DNA from: Treponema sp. UBA3862
Lineage (GTDB): Bacteria > Spirochaetota > Spirochaetia > Treponematales > Treponemataceae
Length of the DNA stretch: 51,432 nucleotides
Direction: 5' to 3'
Assembly (NCBI GenBank): GCA_002392405.1
Contig: DGGY01000037.1
Span: forward strand, 1-51,432
The translations under genes were made by a program, and so were the position numbers. Each line of letters starts with the position of its first letter. Position 1 is the stretch's first letter. Below the pieces are notes generated by a model. The model searched no databases. It was not told the origin of the DNA and was given only the letters and a program-made list of their open reading frames with translations. Below, piece by piece: positions 41,639 through 50,995 of the stretch.

Positions 41639-43216
41639 ATGAAAAGTATTGTTGTAGTTTATGCCGGAGGTAAAACCGGTTACAGATTTGAAAAAGCTTT
41701 TGATTCAAAATCTGCCTTTGACAGGGTAATTGAATGGTCTTTTTTGTTTGAATCTTCTGTTCAGACCCTTGTTTTTACCGACCCTGATAATCTTTCTTTT
41801 GTTAATAAAGAACTTTCAAATATAAAAAATGTATCAGTAGTTACTAAAGAAAACTGGACTAATGCCCTTATCGCTTCAGAGACAGCTGCAGCACAGGCTT
41901 CCTTTAAGGCTGATTATGCTGTTTTAGCCTGGGCGGATACTCCGTTTTTAAATAAAGCACTCTGCCTTGAAATCGAAAAAACTCATGTTCAGTACCGCGC
42001 TGAATATACATTTGCAGACGGTTTTGCCCTCGGACTGACCTGTTCAGCCGCTGATAAAGGGGCCTGTTCAATAATAGCAGCCCTCGCACAGGATAGTCAG
42101 AAGGCCTCAGGTGAAAAAGCTGCTTCGCGTGACGCGCTTTTTTCAATAATGAGCGGAGATATTAATTCTTTTGAAGTTGAAACTGTGATTGCAGATAAAG
42201 ACTACCGGATGCTCAGGCTGAATTTTGAATGTACGACAAAAGCAGGCTTTACTCTGTGCAGAAAACTTTATGAAAAGGCCCGGGAAAATAACTTAAGTCT
42301 TGAAAGCGCAGATTTTGATATTTATAAGATAAGTGACCTTGCAGAAAGGTCTGCTGAACTTCTTAAGACACTTCCGTCTTTTTATAACATTCAGATTTCA
42401 GCAAAGTACAATACAAAAAGCCTTTATATTCCATGTGACAGGCTTTCTCAGGTAAAAAATCTTTCTGACATGAAACTTGAAGATTTTAGAGCACTTGTAA
42501 AAAAGATTTATGAATTTTCTGAAAATGCTTATGTCAGTCTTTCACTCTTTGGTGAACCTTCAGACAATGCAGACTTTAAGGAATTTGCCTGTGAAGTTTT
42601 AAAATATCCTTCGTTAAATCTTTTTATTGAAACTGACGGCCTTAACTTTTCGAAAGAAACAGCCGCTGCAATCGCAGAATGCAATTCCAGGGAAAGAGTA
42701 GATATTGCAGTCCGTCTTGATGCAGTTGATGAGAATATGTATTCAAAAATCAACGGAACAGACGGAAGTAACTTCAAAAAGGCCCTTGAGTGCGTTTCTT
42801 TGCTTAACGGTTATTTTGAAGGACATGTTTATCCTCAGTTTACCAGAATGAAGGCAAATGAAGGACAGCTTGAAAGTTTTTTCAGGTTCTGGAATGAAAA
42901 GACAGGCCCGTCTTCAGGTAAGTTTATCATTGTAAAATATGACAGTTTTGCAGGTCTTTTAAGTGATGAAAAACCTGCAGACCTTTCGCCGCTTGAACGA
43001 AATCCGTGCTGGCATTTAAGACGGGATATGAACATTTTAAGTGACGGAACAGTCATAATGTGCCGTACAAGGTTTGAAGAAGCGTGCGGAAATGCATTTA
43101 AAGCTTCACTTGAAGAAATCTGGTCAAACCTTACTGCAGAAGTTCAGAGCCATATAGAACAGAATTACTGTGAGAAATGCAGGAACTGTGATGAATACTA
43201 TACCTTTAATTTTTAA
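41639..43216 (+). CDS. Spiro-SPASM protein (radical-SAM-like without the radical SAM cysteines)
   Basis: 525 residues of the spirochaete-restricted spiro-SPASM family. The N-terminal part (about 1-230) resembles a nucleotidyl/sugar-nucleotide-binding domain (VVVYAGGKTGYRFEKAF, YAVLAWADTPFL). The middle is TIM-barrel-like in pattern (YNIQISAKYNTKSLYIPCD, AYVSLSLFGEPSDN, VDIAVRLDAVDENMYSKI) but lacks the C-x3-C-x2-C needed for S-adenosylmethionine cleavage. The C-terminus is a cysteine-rich SPASM domain: C457, C475, C483, C511, C514 and C517. It heads the sugar-modification operon. The function is unknown; a cofactor-binding or electron-transfer scaffold is possible. Confidence 0.82.
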   Translation: MKSIVVVYAGGKTGYRFEKAFDSKSAFDRVIEWSFLFESSVQTLVFTDPDNLSFVNKELSNIKNVSVVTKENWTNALIASETAAAQASFKADYAVLAWADTPFLNKALCLEIEKTHVQYRAEYTFADGFALGLTCSAADKGACSIIAALAQDSQKASGEKAASRDALFSIMSGDINSFEVETVIADKDYRMLRLNFECTTKAGFTLCRKLYEKARENNLSLESADFDIYKISDLAERSAELLKTLPSFYNIQISAKYNTKSLYIPCDRLSQVKNLSDMKLEDFRALVKKIYEFSENAYVSLSLFGEPSDNADFKEFACEVLKYPSLNLFIETDGLNFSKETAAAIAECNSRERVDIAVRLDAVDENMYSKINGTDGSNFKKALECVSLLNGYFEGHVYPQFTRMKANEGQLESFFRFWNEKTGPSSGKFIIVKYDSFAGLLSDEKPADLSPLERNPCWHLRRDMNILSDGTVIMCRTRFEEACGNAFKASLEEIWSNLTAEVQSHIEQNYCEKCRNCDEYYTFNF

Positions 43217-44147
43217 TGAACGGCAGGTTAACAGGGTAGTCCTGGGCGGAAAAGAAGCCCAGCCTGAAGTAAAAATCAACCTCGCTCTTATCATTTTAAA
43301 TACCCGTGGAAGCCAGTTTCGTGACAGTGTCCTTAAAAATCTTTCTCAGATGGGTTTTGAACAGATTGTATCAATCGAAACTTCTGCAGACAATTATTCG
43401 CTGGAAGATTTCGTCCATAAGTTTCCGTATATTAAGTTTATTGCTCCCTTAGAGCCTGCAACGGAAGGGGAACTTTTAAACATCGGAATGAGCGAAATAA
43501 AAACAGATTATGTTCTTGTCATAAAAGATACACTTTCACTTACAGGTGATTTTATAACTTCTGGAATTGCAGAAAAAATTACTGCCCTAAAAAAATTTGC
43601 TGTCTTTCCGCGGCTCCTTTCTCAGGGCGGAGAAGCGTTCCCGATAGTTTTTTCACCGGGTGTTTCAGGCTCTACTTTTAAGATTAATTCTTCTGCTTCA
43701 GCTGTTGACGGACTTCCGTCTTTATATCCTTTTGACAATATTGCAGTCTATAACAGAAAGAAATTCATACAGCTCGGCGGTTTTGATTATACGATTTCGT
43801 CACCGCACTGGCAGACAGTAGATTTTTTTATGAGGGCGTGGCTCTGGGGTGAGAAAGTAGAACTTTCAACACTGTTTTTTATGACCTATTCTTCAGCTTT
43901 TCCTCTGGAAGATGTGAGTGCAGATCTTTCGTACGGCCGCTTTTATATGAAAAATCTTCTTCCAAAATTTGATGATGATCACGGAGTTATTCCAAAATCT
44001 TCGCTTTTAGTATATCTTTTTAGATCAGGGTGCGGATTGATGGAATCTTTCAGACAGTTCTTTGATGCCCGTTCCTGGGTAAATAAAAATAAATACAGAT
44101 TTACTCTTGATGCAAAGTATCTTGTTGAAAACTGGGGAAAAATATAA
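43191..44147 (+). CDS. GT-A-fold glycosyltransferase-like protein
   Basis: About 318 residues from the ATG at 43191 (AGGA 6 nt upstream); GTG codons at 43170 and 43188 are alternatives. The start lies 26 nt inside the previous gene. The pattern fits a family 2-like nucleotide-sugar transferase: INLALIILNTRG at the start, YVLVIKDTLSLTGDFI where the DxD loop would be (only one acidic residue visible), and FIQLGGFDYTISSPHWQTVDFFMRAWLWG, typical of the acceptor side. The weak DxD leaves activity uncertain. It ends overlapping the SpsF fusion (TAATG). Confidence 0.6.
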   Translation: MNTIPLIFNERQVNRVVLGGKEAQPEVKINLALIILNTRGSQFRDSVLKNLSQMGFEQIVSIETSADNYSLEDFVHKFPYIKFIAPLEPATEGELLNIGMSEIKTDYVLVIKDTLSLTGDFITSGIAEKITALKKFAVFPRLLSQGGEAFPIVFSPGVSGSTFKINSSASAVDGLPSLYPFDNIAVYNRKKFIQLGGFDYTISSPHWQTVDFFMRAWLWGEKVELSTLFFMTYSSAFPLEDVSADLSYGRFYMKNLLPKFDDDHGVIPKSSLLVYLFRSGCGLMESFRQFFDARSWVNKNKYRFTLDAKYLVENWGKI

Positions 44148-46621
44148 TGACGATTCTTGTTGTTCAGTGCCGTATTTCTTCAACACGGCTTCCTGGCAAA
44201 GCTCTTTTACCTCTCGGAAATAAAACTGTTCTTGACTGGACTCTTGCTTCAATGAGAAAAGTTAAGGCAGATAAATATATAGTAGCAACGGACGAAGAGA
44301 GCCTTGAAGAATTAAAGCCTGTTTCCCTCCGTAATGATTTTGAAATAATTGCAGGTCCGCTTGAAGATGTTCTGGAACGTTTCTGTTTGGTTATAGAAAA
44401 AACAAAAGCAGATACTGTAATACGTGCAACTGCAGATAATCCATTTTTATTTTATGAAGCCGCTTCTGCTTTACTTGAGCAGTACAATCACAGGCAGGAA
44501 ACTTCTAAATGCGACTATATAACATGGACAGGTCTTCCTCATGGAAGCGGTGTTGAAATTTTCAATGCGCATTCACTTCTCAGGGCAAAAGAACTCACTT
44601 CTGAAGCCTATGATCATGAGCATGTAGGTCCGGCCCTTTATAATCATCCTGAAAACTTTACAAGCGTTATGCTCAACGCACCTGAACAGTGGAATTATCC
44701 TGATTTAAGGACAACAATTGATACAGCTGCTGATTACAGAAGGGCTGTCTGGGCAGTTGAAGCACTCGGCGGAGAAGGTCCTTATTCATGTGAGCAGATT
44801 GTAAAAACTTTTGAAGATGAAAATATCCGTTATCCAGTTCTTTGTGTTCCCTGTGTAAAAAAAGGCAGGGGAACAGGCCATTTAAGAAGATGTCTTTCCA
44901 TTGCTGTTTCCCTTCATTGTGATGTTTATATTCCTGAGGATGCAGATCTTGAAGAAAAAGATGAACTTCTTGAAAGTGCCGAAAAGGAAGGTTTTTCTCC
45001 TTCACAGATTGTTACTTCGCTTCCTGAGAAAGGACAGTATGCCCTGATTCTTACAGATGCATTTGTACTTGACCGTGAACTTGCCTTAAAACTTTCTTCG
45101 GTTTCTAAACTTGTATCAATTGATGAAGGTTCATTAAATACAGATCTCTGTGATTATCTTTTAGATATTATTCCGTCATACGGACTTCAGCGCCCGTCAA
45201 ATGTTTCTGACCCGAGTTATGTAACTCTTCCTGAACACAAACGTGAAAAGAAACTTGAAACTGCTGAGGAAATTAAAAATATTTTAGTTACTGTAGGCGG
45301 AGAAGATCCTGCGGATCTTGTTGTTCCTGCAGCCGTTTCCTATGCTTCTTTAGGTTATAGCGTTACGGCAATTGTGCAGGATCCGGAGAAAGCACAGGAG
45401 AGAGCCGGAGAAGAACTTTCTAAAAAGATTAAATTCATTAAGCCTGTTCATAACCTCAGGGAAAAGCTGTATAAATACGAAGTCGTAGTAACTCATTACG
45501 GCTTTACTGCCTTTGAAGCAGTTGCCGCAGGCTGTGGAGTTGTGCTTTTGGGTACTTCAGCCCTTCATGTGAATCTTGCAAATAAATACGGCTTTAAATG
45601 CCTTTCTGCCCAGAATATTAACGAAACAGGAGCGCTTTATTCGCTCAGTGATGTAAAGGAACTGTATCCTGACAGTCCGTTTGCCCGCAGAAACGGCCAG
45701 AAAAATGACCTTGCAAAATTTGTCAGGCTTCTTTCAAAAGGCCAGCGCTTAGAGTGTCCTGTATGTACTTCTTCTCATCAGACATTTGAAGACCAGATTG
45801 TATGCCGTACAAATCAGCGTACTTTCAGAAGATGTAATACCTGTGGCATCCTTTATATGTCTTATACCACAGATTCTCAGAATACTTCTTACGATGAAAA
45901 ATATTTCTTTGAAGGCTATAAAAAACAGTACGGAAAAACCTATCTTGATGATTTTGCGTCAATAAAGGCACAGTGTGTAAGAAGAATTTCTCATATTGAT
46001 TACATATACAGAAACTCTCATAAACTTATTACTCCGACTGTCCTTGATATCGGCTGTGCTTTTGGTCCTTTTATGGATGCCGCAAATGATTCTGGCTGGC
46101 AGGTTTTCGGAACAGATGTTTCAAAAGAAGCAGTAAGCTATGTTCAGGAAAAACTTCATTTTCCTGCAAGCTGTGCCCGTTTCCCGCTTTTTGATTCGGC
46201 TGCGGAATTCGGTGTAAGTGAGTTTGATGCCGTTACAATGTGGTATGTAATTGAGCATTTTAAAGACCTTGACAGTGTATTAAAGGCCGTTTCAAAAATC
46301 TTGAAGCCGGGCGGAGTGTTTGCATTCAGCACACCTTCAGCAAGCGGTGTTTCGGGTAAGTTTAATACACAGAGCTTTTTTGCCGGCAGTCCTGCTGACC
46401 ATTATTCTTTGTGGGAACCAGTGCGCTGCGCTTCAATTTTGAGGAAATACGGATTTAAGGTTGAAAAAATAGTCAGTACAGGTCATCATCCTGAAAGGTT
46501 CCCGAACCTTCAGGGCGCTAAGCCGAACAGTATAAAATGGGCTTTATATTCTGCTTCAAGTCATTTCTTCGGGCTTGGGGATACTTTTGAAGTCTACTGC
46601 AAAAAGGAAAAAGACCTGTAA
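44147..46621 (+). CDS. SpsF cytidylyltransferase - PseG-like hydrolase - methyltransferase fusion
   Basis: 824 residues, three enzymes in one chain. Residues 1-230: SpsF/NeuA-type nucleotidyltransferase (VQCRISSTRLPGKAL, ATADNPF). Residues 232-530: GT-B-like PseG domain (GRGTGHLRRC with H245, TDAFVLD, VTVGGEDPAD, VTHYGFTAFEAVAAG), which in pseudaminic acid synthesis hydrolyses a UDP-sugar. Residues 535-570: zinc-ribbon-like C537/C540 and C563/C566. Residues 610-824: SAM-dependent methyltransferase (LDIGCAFG, 633-640; AVTMWYVIEHFKDL). This could activate, release and methylate an uncommon sugar. It is coupled by overlap to the gene before and lies 19 nt from the ATP-grasp gene. Confidence 0.87.
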   Translation: MTILVVQCRISSTRLPGKALLPLGNKTVLDWTLASMRKVKADKYIVATDEESLEELKPVSLRNDFEIIAGPLEDVLERFCLVIEKTKADTVIRATADNPFLFYEAASALLEQYNHRQETSKCDYITWTGLPHGSGVEIFNAHSLLRAKELTSEAYDHEHVGPALYNHPENFTSVMLNAPEQWNYPDLRTTIDTAADYRRAVWAVEALGGEGPYSCEQIVKTFEDENIRYPVLCVPCVKKGRGTGHLRRCLSIAVSLHCDVYIPEDADLEEKDELLESAEKEGFSPSQIVTSLPEKGQYALILTDAFVLDRELALKLSSVSKLVSIDEGSLNTDLCDYLLDIIPSYGLQRPSNVSDPSYVTLPEHKREKKLETAEEIKNILVTVGGEDPADLVVPAAVSYASLGYSVTAIVQDPEKAQERAGEELSKKIKFIKPVHNLREKLYKYEVVVTHYGFTAFEAVAAGCGVVLLGTSALHVNLANKYGFKCLSAQNINETGALYSLSDVKELYPDSPFARRNGQKNDLAKFVRLLSKGQRLECPVCTSSHQTFEDQIVCRTNQRTFRRCNTCGILYMSYTTDSQNTSYDEKYFFEGYKKQYGKTYLDDFASIKAQCVRRISHIDYIYRNSHKLITPTVLDIGCAFGPFMDAANDSGWQVFGTDVSKEAVSYVQEKLHFPASCARFPLFDSAAEFGVSEFDAVTMWYVIEHFKDLDSVLKAVSKILKPGGVFAFSTPSASGVSGKFNTQSFFAGSPADHYSLWEPVRCASILRKYGFKVEKIVSTGHHPERFPNLQGAKPNSIKWALYSASSHFFGLGDTFEVYCKKEKDL

Positions 46622-46640
46622 GGAAAAACCGGGTGGGGTT

Positions 46641-48269
46641 ATGAATAAAAAAACTGTAATGATTTTAGGTGCAGGCCTGATGCAGGGACCTGCAATAAAA
46701 GCTGCTAAGGAACTTGGCTTTACGTCTTTTGTAGCAGATGCAAACTCAAAGGCAGTGTGTGCAAAGGATGCTGATTACTTTGCACCAGTTGATTTAAAAG
46801 ATAAGGAAAGTCTTCTTGAGTGTGCCCGGATAATTAATTCACAGGAAAAAGTTCTTGCAGGTGTCTTTACGGCGGGAACTGATTTTTCTGCTAATGCAGC
46901 ATATGTTGCAAAAAAATTCGGGCTTCCGGGGCATGAATATGAAGCCTGCCTTAACGCTTCTGATAAAGTCCGTATGCGCGGATGTTTTCAAAAAAATAAT
47001 ATTCCTTCCCCTGGTTTTGAAGAAGTTGATGAAAAACGACTTTTGCAGATTTTAGAAGATGCAGAGAATGGAAAAGTAAAATTTCCAAAGGTAGTAAAGC
47101 CTGCTGACAATATGGGCGGCAGGGGCTGTCGTCTTGTAAGGAATAAAGAAGAATTAAAAGAAGCTGTCCTTCACGCTGTAAAATACAGCAGAACTTCCAG
47201 AGCGATTTTTGAAGATTACATGGAAGGCCCTGAATTCAGTATTGATGCGGTTGTCTATAAAGGAACTCTGACAATTACAGGTTTTGCTGACCGTCATATC
47301 TATTATCCGCCTTATTTTATAGAAACAGGTCATACAATGCCTTCAGTGGCAGATGAAAAGACAAAAAATGAACTAATAGCGACTTTTGCGCTTGGAATAA
47401 AAACTTTAGGCCTTACAGAAGGAATTGCAAAGGCTGATATAAAATATACACAGAACGGACCTATGATAGGAGAAATTGCAGCGCGTCTTTCAGGCGGGTA
47501 CATGAGCGGCTGGACATTTCCTTATTCTTCAGACTGCTTTCTTACAAAAGAAGCTCTTAAAATTGCCGCAGGACTTGAACCTTCATATATTCTTGAAAAC
47601 AGAACTCCGCTGAACTGGACTCCTCATAAAAGCGTTTCAGACAGGGAAAAGCCTTTTGAACTTTATGAATTAAAATCTGTCAGGACAAGTGCAGAAAGGG
47701 CCTGGGTAAGTATTCCGGGAAAAATAGCATCTGTAAAAGGACTTGATGAGGCAGCTGAATCTGACTATGTAAAAGATGTTTTCCCAAGATGTAAAGAAGG
47801 GGATAGCGTCGATTTTCCAAGAAATAATGTGGAAAAATGCGGTAATGTTCTTACCTGTGCTCCTGACTATAAAACTGCAGTTGAAGCAGCTTATAAGGCA
47901 CTCAATAAAATAACACTTGTTCCTGAACTTAATAATGACCGTACTGATGCATTTCTTGAAGGAATTGAACAGGACGATGAAAAGAACTTTCCTCCGTCAT
48001 TTTTTGAAATTGACTGTGATTTAAGTTCTGCCTCAAAGATTCCTGCAGGAAAAAAGGCATGCGGTTATGTTCCTGATTCAATCGCAAAAGTATGGGATAA
48101 TGTACGTGATCCAAACCACTGTACTTTGCATCAGGCAGTAAAGCGTTTTGATGAACTTTATCCTGATCATCCGGAACTGGACGGAGTAAAATTCTGGAAG
48201 GCATGTTTACGGGGCTCAATTCAGGCGATGCTTTATGTATCATCGTATAAAGATTCTGACAGAGTTTAA
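46641..48269 (+). CDS. ATP-grasp carboxylate-amine ligase-type enzyme
   Basis: 542 residues from the ATG at 46641, preceded by GGTGGGG; a frame from 46575 overlaps the previous gene and is not used. The N-terminal pre-ATP-grasp domain (MILGAGLMQGPAIKAAKELG) leads to the ATP-grasp fold (VVKPADNMGGRGCRLV, FEDYMEGPEFSIDAVV, GIAKADIKYTQNGPMIGEIAARLSGG). It resembles carbamoyl-phosphate/BL00235-type ligases that form an amide from a carboxylate. The C-terminal 80 residues (CGYVPDSIAKVWDNVRDPNHC) are unassigned. It probably attaches an amino acid or amine to the sugar made by the neighbours. It is the fourth gene of the operon. Confidence 0.84.
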   Translation: MNKKTVMILGAGLMQGPAIKAAKELGFTSFVADANSKAVCAKDADYFAPVDLKDKESLLECARIINSQEKVLAGVFTAGTDFSANAAYVAKKFGLPGHEYEACLNASDKVRMRGCFQKNNIPSPGFEEVDEKRLLQILEDAENGKVKFPKVVKPADNMGGRGCRLVRNKEELKEAVLHAVKYSRTSRAIFEDYMEGPEFSIDAVVYKGTLTITGFADRHIYYPPYFIETGHTMPSVADEKTKNELIATFALGIKTLGLTEGIAKADIKYTQNGPMIGEIAARLSGGYMSGWTFPYSSDCFLTKEALKIAAGLEPSYILENRTPLNWTPHKSVSDREKPFELYELKSVRTSAERAWVSIPGKIASVKGLDEAAESDYVKDVFPRCKEGDSVDFPRNNVEKCGNVLTCAPDYKTAVEAAYKALNKITLVPELNNDRTDAFLEGIEQDDEKNFPPSFFEIDCDLSSASKIPAGKKACGYVPDSIAKVWDNVRDPNHCTLHQAVKRFDELYPDHPELDGVKFWKACLRGSIQAMLYVSSYKDSDRV

Positions 48270-48292
48270 AAAGGAGAGTTATAATTAATTTT

Positions 48293-49318
48293 ATGATTAA
48301 AAAGTTTTCTGCCTTTATTACAGTTTTATTTTCGCTTTCAGGGCTTTTTTGCCAGAGTCTTAATCTTGTTGAAGAGGCTTCAAAAACCGGAATTACCGTT
48401 TACTGGGACACGCTTTCAGGTTCGGGAATACTTGAAAAAAACGGGCACCAGATTTCTTTTAAAGCCGGTGATAATTTTATTCTTGAAGATTATACAAAAC
48501 TTGTTCTGACAGATGTTCCTGAAATTAAAGACGGAGCAGTCACAGTTTCAAAAGCATTTCTTGATGAAGCAGAAAAACTGTTTAAGACAGAGAATACTCA
48601 AAACGGCTATAAAATCGGTGCAATTTTAATAGACCCGGGGCACGGCGGAAAAGATCCGGGGGCTTCCTTTACTCATAAAGTCAACGGAAAAAGCATCACG
48701 GTTACAGAAAAGGACGTTAACCTTAAAGTCGGCAAAATGCTTTACTCAAGGCTTAAGTCTGCTTATCCTGACAAAAATATTCAGATGACCCGTTCAACAG
48801 ATGTTTTTCTTTCTCTTTCACAGCGCACTGATATTGCAAATGCAATTAAATTAAAAGATAAGGAAGCAATTCTTTACATTTCAATTCATGTAAATGCTTC
48901 ACTGGACAGAAAGGCTTCAGGCTATGAAGTCTGGTATCTTTCTCCAGGGTACCGCCGTAATGTTCTTGATAAAAAAGCAGTTGAAGACAAAGATCTTTAT
49001 GCGGTTATGAATTCAATGATGGAAGAAGAGTATACAACAGAAAGCATTCTTATCGCCAAGTTCATAATGGACGGAATGCAGGCTCAGGCAGGAAATCTTT
49101 CAACTGCCCGCGGAATTAAGGCAGAAGAATGGTTTGTTGTCCGTAATTCAAACATGCCTGCCGTTTTAGTAGAACTCGGATTCCTCACAAACCAGAAAGA
49201 AGGTCTTCTTCTCAGTGACAGCTCATACTTGCAGAAACTTTCTCTGGGAATATATAATGGCTTGTCCGCTTTTGTAACTCATTTTGAGCGTTCAAGAGGA
49301 TTTACGGGTTCAAAATAA
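48293..49318 (+). CDS. N-acetylmuramoyl-L-alanine amidase (Amidase_3), exported
   Basis: A zinc amidase that cuts the stem peptide from the glycan of peptidoglycan, in daughter-cell separation or remodelling for flagella. 341 residues with a signal peptide (about 1-20). An AMIN-like segment precedes the catalytic domain, whose ligands are H117 (DPGHGG), E139 and H199 (SIHVNAS), with catalytic E294 (VLVELGFLTN). An insert at about 205-250 (GYEVWYLSPGYRRN) is typical of spirochaete enzymes. It follows the ATP-grasp gene by 23 nt and is followed directly by the GerMN gene. Confidence 0.93.
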   Translation: MIKKFSAFITVLFSLSGLFCQSLNLVEEASKTGITVYWDTLSGSGILEKNGHQISFKAGDNFILEDYTKLVLTDVPEIKDGAVTVSKAFLDEAEKLFKTENTQNGYKIGAILIDPGHGGKDPGASFTHKVNGKSITVTEKDVNLKVGKMLYSRLKSAYPDKNIQMTRSTDVFLSLSQRTDIANAIKLKDKEAILYISIHVNASLDRKASGYEVWYLSPGYRRNVLDKKAVEDKDLYAVMNSMMEEEYTTESILIAKFIMDGMQAQAGNLSTARGIKAEEWFVVRNSNMPAVLVELGFLTNQKEGLLLSDSSYLQKLSLGIYNGLSAFVTHFERSRGFTGSK

Positions 49319-49798
49319 ATGAAACATTTTCTGGAATTATTAAAAAACAATAAAAAAATTCTTCTTCTTGCGTCCCTGCTTTTTCTTTTTCTGATTTCTT
49401 TTATTAATTTTATTGTCTGTTTCCGCGGCTCTAAATATACTTTCCGCTATCATGAAGCAGGTTCTGATCGTATTCTTTACGAGAGCAGGGTGGTTTCTTC
49501 AGTTAAAAATACACCAAAAATAAAGCTCTATGTTGAAGAACTTCTTCTCGGACCGTCTGTAAGGCGCGGAGTTCCTCTTTTTCCGCTTCAGACCAGAGTG
49601 ATTTTCTGCTTTGTCCGCGGGAATGAACTTTTTCTCAATCTCTCTGAACAGGCCGTAATGAATTTTTCACCTGAAATGGACCTTGAAGAAAGTTACAGAA
49701 TGCTTTCAGATAATGTCTGCCGTAATTTTAGTAATATAAAAAAAGTGAATCTTTTTATTGACGGAAATTCTGTATTTTCTGATGTTAAAATACAATAA
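49319..49798 (+). CDS. GerMN-domain membrane protein
   Basis: 159 residues: a transmembrane or signal segment (about 14-34) and one GerMN domain (KIKLYVEELLLGPSVRRGVPLFP, then FLNLSEQAVMNFS and IKKVNLFIDGN). GerMN domains occur in spore and envelope proteins, often next to amidases, where they bind or regulate them. Here the gene starts directly at the amidase stop (TAAATG), so the pair is co-translated and likely acts together on the periplasmic peptidoglycan. Confidence 0.83.
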   Translation: MKHFLELLKNNKKILLLASLLFLFLISFINFIVCFRGSKYTFRYHEAGSDRILYESRVVSSVKNTPKIKLYVEELLLGPSVRRGVPLFPLQTRVIFCFVRGNELFLNLSEQAVMNFSPEMDLEESYRMLSDNVCRNFSNIKKVNLFIDGNSVFSDVKIQ

Positions 49799-49805
49799 AT
49801 TTCCG

Positions 49806-49834
49806 TTGACAAAATAACACTCTTATACAATAAT
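49806..49834 (+). promoter_or_regulatory. Putative flaA promoter
   Basis: TTGACA (49806-49811), 17-bp spacer, AATAAT (49829-49834); TACAAT at 49826-49831 is an alternative -10 with a 14-bp spacer. A sigma-70-type promoter, not sigma-28-like. A Shine-Dalgarno AAGGAG (49868-49873) lies 6 nt before the ATG. Confidence 0.55.
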
Positions 49835-49879
49835 TATTTATTATACAAGGCTACATCAATCGAAAATAAGGAGCTTCGA

Positions 49880-50995
49880 ATGAAGAAAACTTTCGTTTTA
49901 TCTGCTGCAGTAATGATGCTCTTCGGTACATCAGTATTTGCAAAAGAATCAACACTTATCGATTTCACAACACTTGATGCTGATATTACTATCAAAGCTC
50001 AGGACAGCGATGTTGAAATCCCTGAAAACAGCCGCACAATTATGGATTATGGTGTTGCAGCTGGTGCAACTTTTGACCAGGATCAGAAAGATCTTATGAA
50101 GACTTCTCTGTACCTCGGTGACTGGGAAGTACAGCTTAACAGCTCTGCTCAGACAGTTCCTGCTCTCGCAAACTCACAGGTAGTTCCTGCTCCTGTTCGC
50201 GACAGTGCAAAAGTTCCTTTCGCAGGCAAGAATGTAATGGGTGTTCGCGTAGTATTCCCTACAGGTGCTTACAACGCTAACGCTAAAATCGTTCCACCGT
50301 TTGAAATTCCGGCTTACGAACCACTTTCAACAGCTGATGAAAATGGTAACCGCCAGCCACAGACTGATGAACAGAAGGCTTCTGGCCGCACACTGTTCGA
50401 AGCTGATGATGATGATTCTCCGGCTTACGGTCTCGTAAAGAACGTTGGTACAATCAAATCAATCGCAGTTACAACAATGGGTATGAACTTCCCTCACGGT
50501 CTTTATGTTCTCCTTGGAGACACAGACGGTGTAGTACGCCGCTACTTCATGGGTTACCTTGGATTCGACGGATGGAAGACACTCGTATGGAACAACCCTG
50601 ACTATATTTCAGATGTTCGCACACGCGAAATCCGTGTTTACCCGATTTATCCACGTGGACTTCCATTTGTTAAGTTCGCTGGTTTCCAGGTTACACGTGA
50701 CGCTGCTCACATCGGTGATGACTTCATCGGTTACTTCAAAGATGTAAAAATCATCTACGACAAAGCAGAACTTACATCAGAACGTGATATTGCAGACGAA
50801 GACCTCTGGGGTATCGTAACAAAGAAAGAATCTGCACGCCAGAGCCTCGAAATGAGCCGCTTCGGTAACAAGCAGGTTAACCGCTACCTCGAAAAGTCTA
50901 AGCAGGCTAGAGAAGAAGCATTCTCATCTTCACTTGATGAAAATTCTACTTCTAATGCTCAGTCTAATGGTGGTCAGGCTGCCAATGCAAAATAA
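49880..50995 (+). CDS. flaA: Flagellar filament outer layer (sheath) protein FlaA
   Basis: Coats the FlaB core of the spirochaete periplasmic flagellum. 371 residues; signal peptide 1-21 (ends SVFA, then KEST). The mature protein has the family blocks LYLGDWEVQLNSSA, VMGVRVVFPTG, KNVGTIKSIAVTTMGMNFPHGLYVLLGDTDGV, YFMGYLGFDGWKTLVWNNP and FVKFAGFQVTRDAAHIGDDFIGYFKDVKIIYD. The C-terminal tail is polar (Ser/Asn/Gln). It has its own promoter, a strong ribosome site and a terminator. Codon choice is more strongly biased than in neighbouring genes, as expected for an abundant protein. Confidence 0.94.
   Translation: MKKTFVLSAAVMMLFGTSVFAKESTLIDFTTLDADITIKAQDSDVEIPENSRTIMDYGVAAGATFDQDQKDLMKTSLYLGDWEVQLNSSAQTVPALANSQVVPAPVRDSAKVPFAGKNVMGVRVVFPTGAYNANAKIVPPFEIPAYEPLSTADENGNRQPQTDEQKASGRTLFEADDDDSPAYGLVKNVGTIKSIAVTTMGMNFPHGLYVLLGDTDGVVRRYFMGYLGFDGWKTLVWNNPDYISDVRTREIRVYPIYPRGLPFVKFAGFQVTRDAAHIGDDFIGYFKDVKIIYDKAELTSERDIADEDLWGIVTKKESARQSLEMSRFGNKQVNRYLEKSKQAREEAFSSSLDENSTSNAQSNGGQAANAK

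Follow-up and report, generated by a model that had tools for sequence, protein, structure and literature searches.

The window analysed here is one contig of 51,432 nucleotides (nt) from Treponema sp. UBA3862 (DGGY01000037.1, positions 1 to 51,432; assembly GCA_002392405.1), the source genome being 1.59 Mb and 65.5% complete. It carries four closely packed genes, all of them open frames on the + strand in the frame list of the window, for a spiro-SPASM protein, a GT-A-fold glycosyltransferase-like protein, a fusion of SpsF, PseG and methyltransferase domains, and an ATP-grasp ligase. On re-computing the spacing we found an overlap of 26 nt between the first two genes, an overlap of 1 nt between the GT-A gene and the fusion and a gap of 19 nt before the ligase, exactly as given in an initial annotation made from the sequence alone, which had taken the four genes for an operon of an undescribed sugar or glycan modification pathway. 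The best-supported reading is that of a spirochete variant of the flagellin nonulosonic acid (NulO) pathway, present in most of the flagellated families sampled. The features are as follows.

41639..43216, + strand: spiro-SPASM protein, 525 amino acids (aa); TIGR04321
43191..44147, + strand: GT-A-fold glycosyltransferase-like protein, 318 aa; start codon within the spiro-SPASM gene
44147..44830, + strand: domain 1 of the fusion (gene 44147-46621), SpsF-type cytidylyltransferase, about residues 1-228; PF02348, 111.4 bits
44849..45721, + strand: domain 2 of the fusion, PseG/SpsG-like uridine diphosphate (UDP)-sugar hydrolase, about residues 235-525; TIGR03590, 29 bits, below the cut-off
45734..46621, + strand: domain 3 of the fusion, zinc-ribbon-like CPVC/CxxCG motifs and S-adenosylmethionine (SAM) methyltransferase, about residues 530-824; PF13489, 75.8 bits
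46641..48269, + strand: ATP-grasp carboxylate-amine ligase with LAL_C2 domain, 542 aa; PF18603, 60.9 bits, and PF13535, 49.1 bits
48293..49318, + strand: N-acetylmuramoyl-L-alanine amidase, which follows the ligase in the conserved unit; PF01520, 152.4 bits
49319..49798, + strand: GerM/Germane-like protein; PF10646, 25.3 bits (cut-off 23)
49880..50995, + strand: flaA, flagellar filament sheath protein, the last gene of the conserved unit as examined here; PF04620, 242.7 bits

Gene order at the locus and across spirochetes

The domain families that the initial annotation had assigned to the four genes were borne out, except that the GT-A gene scores below curated cut-offs, as does the PseG domain. 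The run continues beyond the ligase with the amidase, the GerM-like gene and flaA at gaps of 23, 0 and 81 nt, and xseA lies 61 nt upstream of the spiro-SPASM gene in divergent orientation. The fusion has a match in 135 of 135 genomes of the Treponemataceae, and the treponeme loci compared here are the best 80 of 223 matches, adjacency being counted only where both genes were present; among these best 80 the nearest named relative is Treponema berlinense, whose fusion is 77% identical. The conserved four-gene order that the initial annotation proposed to look for is present in these loci, where spiro-SPASM adjoins the GT-A gene in 67 of 67 cases and the GT-A gene adjoins the fusion in 75 of 75. 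The spacing is at most 300 nt between fusion and ligase in 70 of 75 loci, between ligase and amidase in 65 of 67, between amidase and GerM-like gene in 60 of 60 and between GerM-like gene and flaA in 58 of 59. The four-gene block is not due to chance. As for the exceptions, the fusion is without the GT-A gene despite available upstream sequence in 4 of the 80 loci (L023, L029, L030 and L031), the ligase is absent despite available downstream sequence in 3 (L018, L023 and L031), and extra genes, seemingly unrelated by eye, lie between fusion and ligase in L010, L014, L015 and L020.

When the in-frame start nearest the expected spot was taken as the GT-A start, all of 67 distinct loci (67 of 67) showed exactly 26 nt of overlap and an ATG start. 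The same overlap was seen in 27 of 30 loci of a second set, some of which may be the same genomes as the 67, the remainder being one GTG start three bases earlier and two cases without overlap. Positions 43191-43216 are dual-coding, with CDEYYTFNF-stop and MNTIPLIFN read off the same bases; both protein ends are strongly conserved and the overlap is exact across several families.

Outside the Treponemataceae, spiro-SPASM, PseG-methyltransferase and ligase lie within 9 kb in 23 of the 28 genomes for which all three coordinates were available (nine families), the remainder being split over contigs (4 cases) or apart (1 case), and SpsF is often encoded by a gene of its own beside that for PseG-methyltransferase. 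One locus of a sister family (L192) has the whole series through flaA, with a GerM-like gene just below the Pfam cut-off, and one of another class (L194) has an xseA-like gene (named by eye), spiro-SPASM, SpsF, PseG-methyltransferase, amidase and flaA in order, without the GT-A gene and the ligase. In the genome presumed to be T. denticola the ligase lies 310 kb from the fusion, unlike in the window, and the genes upstream of flaA in that species were considered as a counterpart of this operon and rejected, fusion and ligase being located elsewhere. For the same reason, the reported co-transcription of T. denticola flaA and the four genes upstream of it (PMC9481697) bears on the flaA end alone. 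A -10/-35 consensus scan of the window gave 78 sites against 81.8 expected, i.e. chance level; one promoter-like sequence with a single consensus mismatch lies at 49806-49834, just 5′ of flaA, and such sites occur in the window in chance number.

Co-occurrence with flagellin

In 296 spirochete genomes we found flagellin in 269, spiro-SPASM in 237 (221 of them above the curated cut-off), a fusion relative in 242, the ligase (E ≤ 1e-20) in 229 and NeuB in 259. Spiro-SPASM, fusion relatives and ligase track flagellin except in one family (f6), which we take to be probably Borreliaceae. All 35 genomes of this family (0.9-1.9 Mb) have flagellin, and none has a match to spiro-SPASM, fusion relative, ligase or NeuB. 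The FlaB of Borrelia burgdorferi is reported to be without two serines that are glycosylated in Treponema (PMC7431986). Subtracting f6 leaves 234 flagellin-positive genomes (269-35), to which the totals for spiro-SPASM (234+3), fusion (234+8) and ligase (234-5) correspond, the five without a ligase match being G228, G272, G286, G287 and G356. The 27 flagellin-less genomes (f12 and f9/g36) have the ligase in 0 of 27 at the same threshold and weak matches to spiro-SPASM in 3 and to the fusion in 8; a NeuB-domain match, mostly weak, is present in 25. Within f9, g52 retains flagellin along with spiro-SPASM, fusion and ligase, and g36 is without flagellin. It should be added that the overlap between these profiles was worked out by eye and arithmetic from rows complete for the genomes with a match and listed only in part for those without, and that the fusion relatives of distant genomes reach down to 4e-14 and may partly be generic methyltransferases or cytidylyltransferases, the best flagellin-less match being 2e-8.

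The same chemistry could also serve a NulO-containing glycan of the outer surface, lipid-linked or capsular, in place of flagellin, and the linkage with flaA would then be incidental. Strong NeuB relatives are present in some of the flagellin-less genomes (G296, G313, G351 and G361), and Leptospira express di-N-acetylated NulOs, the exact context of which is left open by the authors (PMC3438082). Yet we consider this explanation unlikely because of the flagellin co-occurrence profile, in which the flagellin-less genomes have no ligase and only the few weak matches given above. The linkage to flaA in two families, plus one outlier family without ligase and GT-A gene, and a 1.14-Mb genome that retains the gene set also argue against it.

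Domain chemistry and the flagellin glycan

The SpsF domain, which matches PDB entry 6oew (E 3e-17) and in which RxSSxRLPxKA and RATADNPFLF are conserved, is proposed to be a synthetase of cytidine monophosphate (CMP)-NulO. GxGTGHLRR (GRGTGHLRR in the window) and the HYGFTAFEA region are conserved in the PseG domain. The ligase scores above the gathering score for ATP-grasp_4 (PF13535) and LAL_C2 (PF18603), matches an L-amino acid ligase (PDB 3vot, E 6.6e-19), and is proposed, as a predicted N-acyl ligase, to stand in for PseH. The ligases of distant spirochetes are fused to a flavin mononucleotide (FMN)-dependent 2-hydroxyacid-dehydrogenase domain (FMN_dh, PF01070) in 10 of the 10 tested (L189, L190, L191, L197-L200 and L202-L204). 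These come from 11 outlier ligase loci, of which L201 gave no frame under the filter, and L189 and L202, from one genus, match the second half of the FMN_dh model only. No FMN_dh domain was found in the ligases of the window, L187, L188 and L192. The fused domain resembles lactate dehydrogenases and oxidases, which in the FMN_dh type act on 2-hydroxy acids; this is an independent hint that the acid used by the ligase may be a 2-hydroxy or 2-keto acid.

The remaining NulO genes were sought in a panel of 31 genomes that we chose out of the 135 of the family. A NeuB/PseI-like gene, a PseC-like gene (a partial match only in G007) and the ligase (with internal stop codons in G024) are each present in 31 of 31. 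PF01973, named MptE-like in the database copy used and taken by us to cover the Maf flagellin transferases, is above the cut-off in all 31; among 14 control genomes it matches 4, each of them archaeal. Weak PseC and PseI matches also occur in 13 and 8 of the 14 controls, which makes them less specific than PF01973. PseH exceeds its cut-off in 0 of 31, gives a weak match in 22 and none at E ≤ 1e-3 in 9, and its model also matches 13 of 14 controls. The 9 genomes include one of 1,139,633 bp and the window's own incomplete genome, and a PseH like that of G006 would have shown in them, since the G006 gene has an E of 6.7e-13. The window's own genome has its PseC-like and NeuB-like genes on contig C33, and the 1.14-Mb genome retains fusion, PseC-like, NeuB-like, ligase and PF01973 genes. 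A dehydratase of the PglF/CapD kind directly precedes the PseC-like gene in G031 and in the 1.14-Mb genome.

Besides this core set, G006 has on contig C32, at about 81-89 kb, an additional classical pseudaminic-acid cluster whose PseI and PseC exceed their cut-offs, so that the profile search is able to detect such a cluster. A tandem PF01973 (Maf-type) pair was observed with genes for proteins of about 300 aa and about 630-870 aa in L182 (7830-10879), L183 (6741-9673), L184 (5937-8866) and L185 (5985-8943). We had expected Maf-type genes beside flagellin genes, but the pair sits in a separate conserved block, and a string check for a flagellin signature found none in the blocks of L182-L185. 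Three genes resembling molybdenum hydroxylase (named by eye) follow the PseC-like aminotransferase in L134 (302-4882), L135 (13566-18178), L136 (5885-10592) and L139 (6573-11192).

A study of 2017 reportedly describes the T. denticola glycan as a mono-acetyl NulO with a 2-methoxy-4,5,6-trihydroxyhexanoyl group on N7. The computed mass of a monoacetyl NulO residue (274.12) and a 2-methoxy-trihydroxyhexanoyl group (176.07) is 450.18 (450.185), and the T. denticola FlaBs carry a glycan of 450.2 Da that is essential for filament assembly and motility (PMC9481697). ATP-grasp ligase and methyltransferase fit this glycan, because an amide and an O-methyl group are what the two enzymes would supply; the mass and the reportedly methylated N-acyl NulO of this treponeme flagellin both match the chemistry predicted for the operon.

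The closest precedent, and an experimental one, is flagellin modification by sfmABCDE of Shewanella oneidensis, in which an ATP-grasp_4 ligase and a SAM methyltransferase are encoded with a protein whose N-terminus resembles PseI; a 274-Da mono-acetyl NulO is found on flagellin Ser with an apparently nitrogen-free, methylated extra moiety, and sfmD (methyltransferase) and sfmE (ATP-grasp) are needed for full modification (PMC3765264). Shewanella has PseB and PseC homologues and is reported to lack clear orthologues of PseH, PseG, PseI and PseF (PMC3765264). The two systems differ in that the accessible text describes no SpsF-PseG-methyltransferase fusion, spiro-SPASM or GT-A gene in sfm, and in the extra moiety (236-264 Da against 176 Da in the treponeme glycan); as of 2013 sfm was reported in one further Shewanella species, and it has a thiamine pyrophosphate enzyme and an oxoacyl reductase (PMC3765264), domains not found at 41639-50995, the part of the genome searched. 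The window operon shares with the sfm type that NulO enzymes are encoded together with an ATP-grasp ligase and a methyltransferase. In the sps system of Bacillus subtilis SpsC, SpsE, SpsF and SpsG act on UDP-linked precursors up to CMP-legionaminic acid; it differs in its putative acetyltransferase SpsD, in its separate proteins and in serving the spore crust and not flagella, and no ATP-grasp ligase is described in the text at hand (PMC7439481).

An alternative for the ligase is that it adds an amino acid or N-methyl amino acid, the methyltransferase then acting on nitrogen. The LAL_C2 domain and the similarity to L-amino acid ligase would suit this, and an N-acyl group of amino-acid type is known from the legionaminic acid of Clostridium botulinum. 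Three points make it improbable, namely the fusion of outlier ligases to an FMN_dh domain resembling lactate dehydrogenases and oxidases, the fit of the 450.2-Da mass to a nitrogen-free acyl group, and the nitrogen-free moiety reported for Shewanella (PMC3765264).

The window spiro-SPASM protein belongs to its family with 490.6 bits against NCBIfam TIGR04321 (cut-off 250), and is predicted to fold as a cytidylyltransferase over residues 1-250 and as radical-SAM/SPASM over 240-522. It is without the CxxxCxxC [4Fe-4S] motif, and radical chemistry was rejected for it because Y257, S261 and I264 stand in the places of the three motif cysteines. Among 95 aligned sequences (the window's included) the motif is missing in 70 and kept in 25, and it is also missing in two outlier genomes inspected; the SPASM cysteines C457, C475, C514 and C517 are all in the window protein and each in 99% of the 95. 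A quick tree with motif columns retained gave 5 changes of motif state by parsimony, or about 8 losses by our count on that tree if regain is impossible. The mostly absent CxxxCxxC and the extra N-domain of cytidylyltransferase fold set the protein apart from the radical-SAM/SPASM enzymes BtrN and SuiB. The GT-A gene has a sub-threshold Pfam match only (PF10111, 16.2 bits; cut-off 27.3), and its product has the GT-A glycosyltransferase fold in the predicted model. The nearest solved fold is that of polypeptide GalNAc-transferases (GT27), at an identity of only about 10%, and compared with GT27 the metal motif is cut to a single Asp, D113, which is present in 44 of 50 sequences with mostly L, M or I at position 115 and no clear DxD/DxH. 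The two overlapping proteins are probably translationally coupled partners, perhaps forming a non-radical scaffold or substrate-binding complex. A more daring and tentative suggestion is that this complex handles a nucleotide-NulO, with a pseudo-cytidylyltransferase fused to a former radical-SAM sugar enzyme whose radical cluster was lost many times and whose SPASM cluster was kept. It might then be a pseudo-radical-SAM class retained for a non-radical task in glycosylating flagellin; in the CxxxCxxC lineages it might instead be a radical enzyme acting on CMP-bound nonulosonic acid.

Proposed pathway and its significance

Taking these results together, the operon probably encodes the later steps of NulO synthesis. 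The product would be a CMP-activated sugar that bears an O-methylated, extended N-acyl group and is used to O-glycosylate FlaB, the periplasmic flagellins; catalytic steps, substrate and target are all inferred. A PglF/PseB-like dehydratase and a PseC-like aminotransferase, encoded elsewhere, would give a UDP-4-amino-sugar, to whose 4-amino group the ATP-grasp ligase would join a polyhydroxy 2-hydroxy acid in the place of the acetyltransferase PseH of classical pathways. The PseG domain would then remove UDP, a NeuB-family synthase encoded elsewhere would add phosphoenolpyruvate, and the SpsF domain would make the CMP sugar. The methyltransferase domain would methylate the acyl chain at some stage, and Maf transferases encoded elsewhere would attach the sugar to FlaB Ser/Thr.

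Several points weigh against this proposal. Flagellin co-occurrence is supportive and not conclusive, because the absences sit in few clades and perhaps represent three independent events, and the spiro-SPASM matches in G356, G359 and G263 (1e-5, 2e-4 and 4e-8) are at or near the flagellin-less background. The window PseG domain reaches 29 bits where the TIGR03590 equivalog cut-off is 153.55, and PseC and PseI matches are below cut-off in all panel genomes except G006 (1 of 31 each). The PseH cut-off is not a sensitive test, since the PseH-like gene beside PseI in G006 scores 49.6 of 93.1 bits, and some weak PseH/GNAT match exists in 22 of 31 genomes. A dehydratase of the PglF/CapD kind (CoA_binding_3 in 1 of 2 tested) fits the legionaminic as well as the pseudaminic route, and the mass match cannot tell the proposed acyl group from isomers, the T. 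denticola structure being the one reportedly described in 2017. The ligase, taken as an operon member in the initial annotation, is linked in most genomes and unlinked to the fusion in 5 of 31 Treponemataceae genomes (G015, G016, G021, G024 and G028), two of which are presumably T. denticola and T. pallidum. In G024 the sole ligase match (contig C1, 2556714-2558196) is broken by several stop codons, from assembly error or decay. The Shewanella sfmE mutant still formed filaments and swam, with reduced spreading (PMC3765264), and in Leptospira biflexa a search for NulOs in one study identified none (PMC3438082), where an extended N-acyl NulO might have escaped detection. Putative glycans have nevertheless been seen on Leptospira FlaB1, between filament core and sheath (PMC13144727).

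A grouping that reflects nothing but expression timing, with NulO enzymes, amidase and flaA doing different jobs in the building of periplasmic flagella, is very unlikely: the distance between ligase and fusion in the presumed T. denticola and T. pallidum genomes would suit it, as would the amidase and GerM-like genes, which are not known to have a NulO role, but joint function is favoured by the fused domains and by the overlap of spiro-SPASM with the GT-A gene, and the absences of spiro-SPASM, fusion and ligase go together.

The interpretation given in the initial annotation is partly supported. Gene order, flaA linkage, flagellin co-occurrence, NulO and Maf-type genes and glycan mass agree with a CMP-activated, methylated, amide-bearing sugar for flagella, except that the four genes are only a part of the pathway, with aminotransferase, synthase and transferases elsewhere. 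The flagellar role had been drawn from the nearby flaA, a linkage that is kept, and from the novel flagellin glycans of treponemes; the FlaB core flagellins are a likelier target than FlaA, judging from the title of a 1998 paper in a reference list. The word undescribed does not hold for this kind of pathway: experiments on sfmABCDE provide a precedent (PMC3765264), and the chemistry of the flagellin glycan of T. denticola is known. The literature searched gave no gene set for spirochete flagellin glycosylation, although the 2017 T. denticola structure paper may assign genes. The operon gives candidates for most glycosylation steps across much of the phylum, making the sugar coat testable gene by gene, and one flagellated family with small genomes (f6) is shown to be without the gene set. 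The use of an ATP-grasp ligase in place of PseH is suggested as a way to diversify nonulosonic acids.

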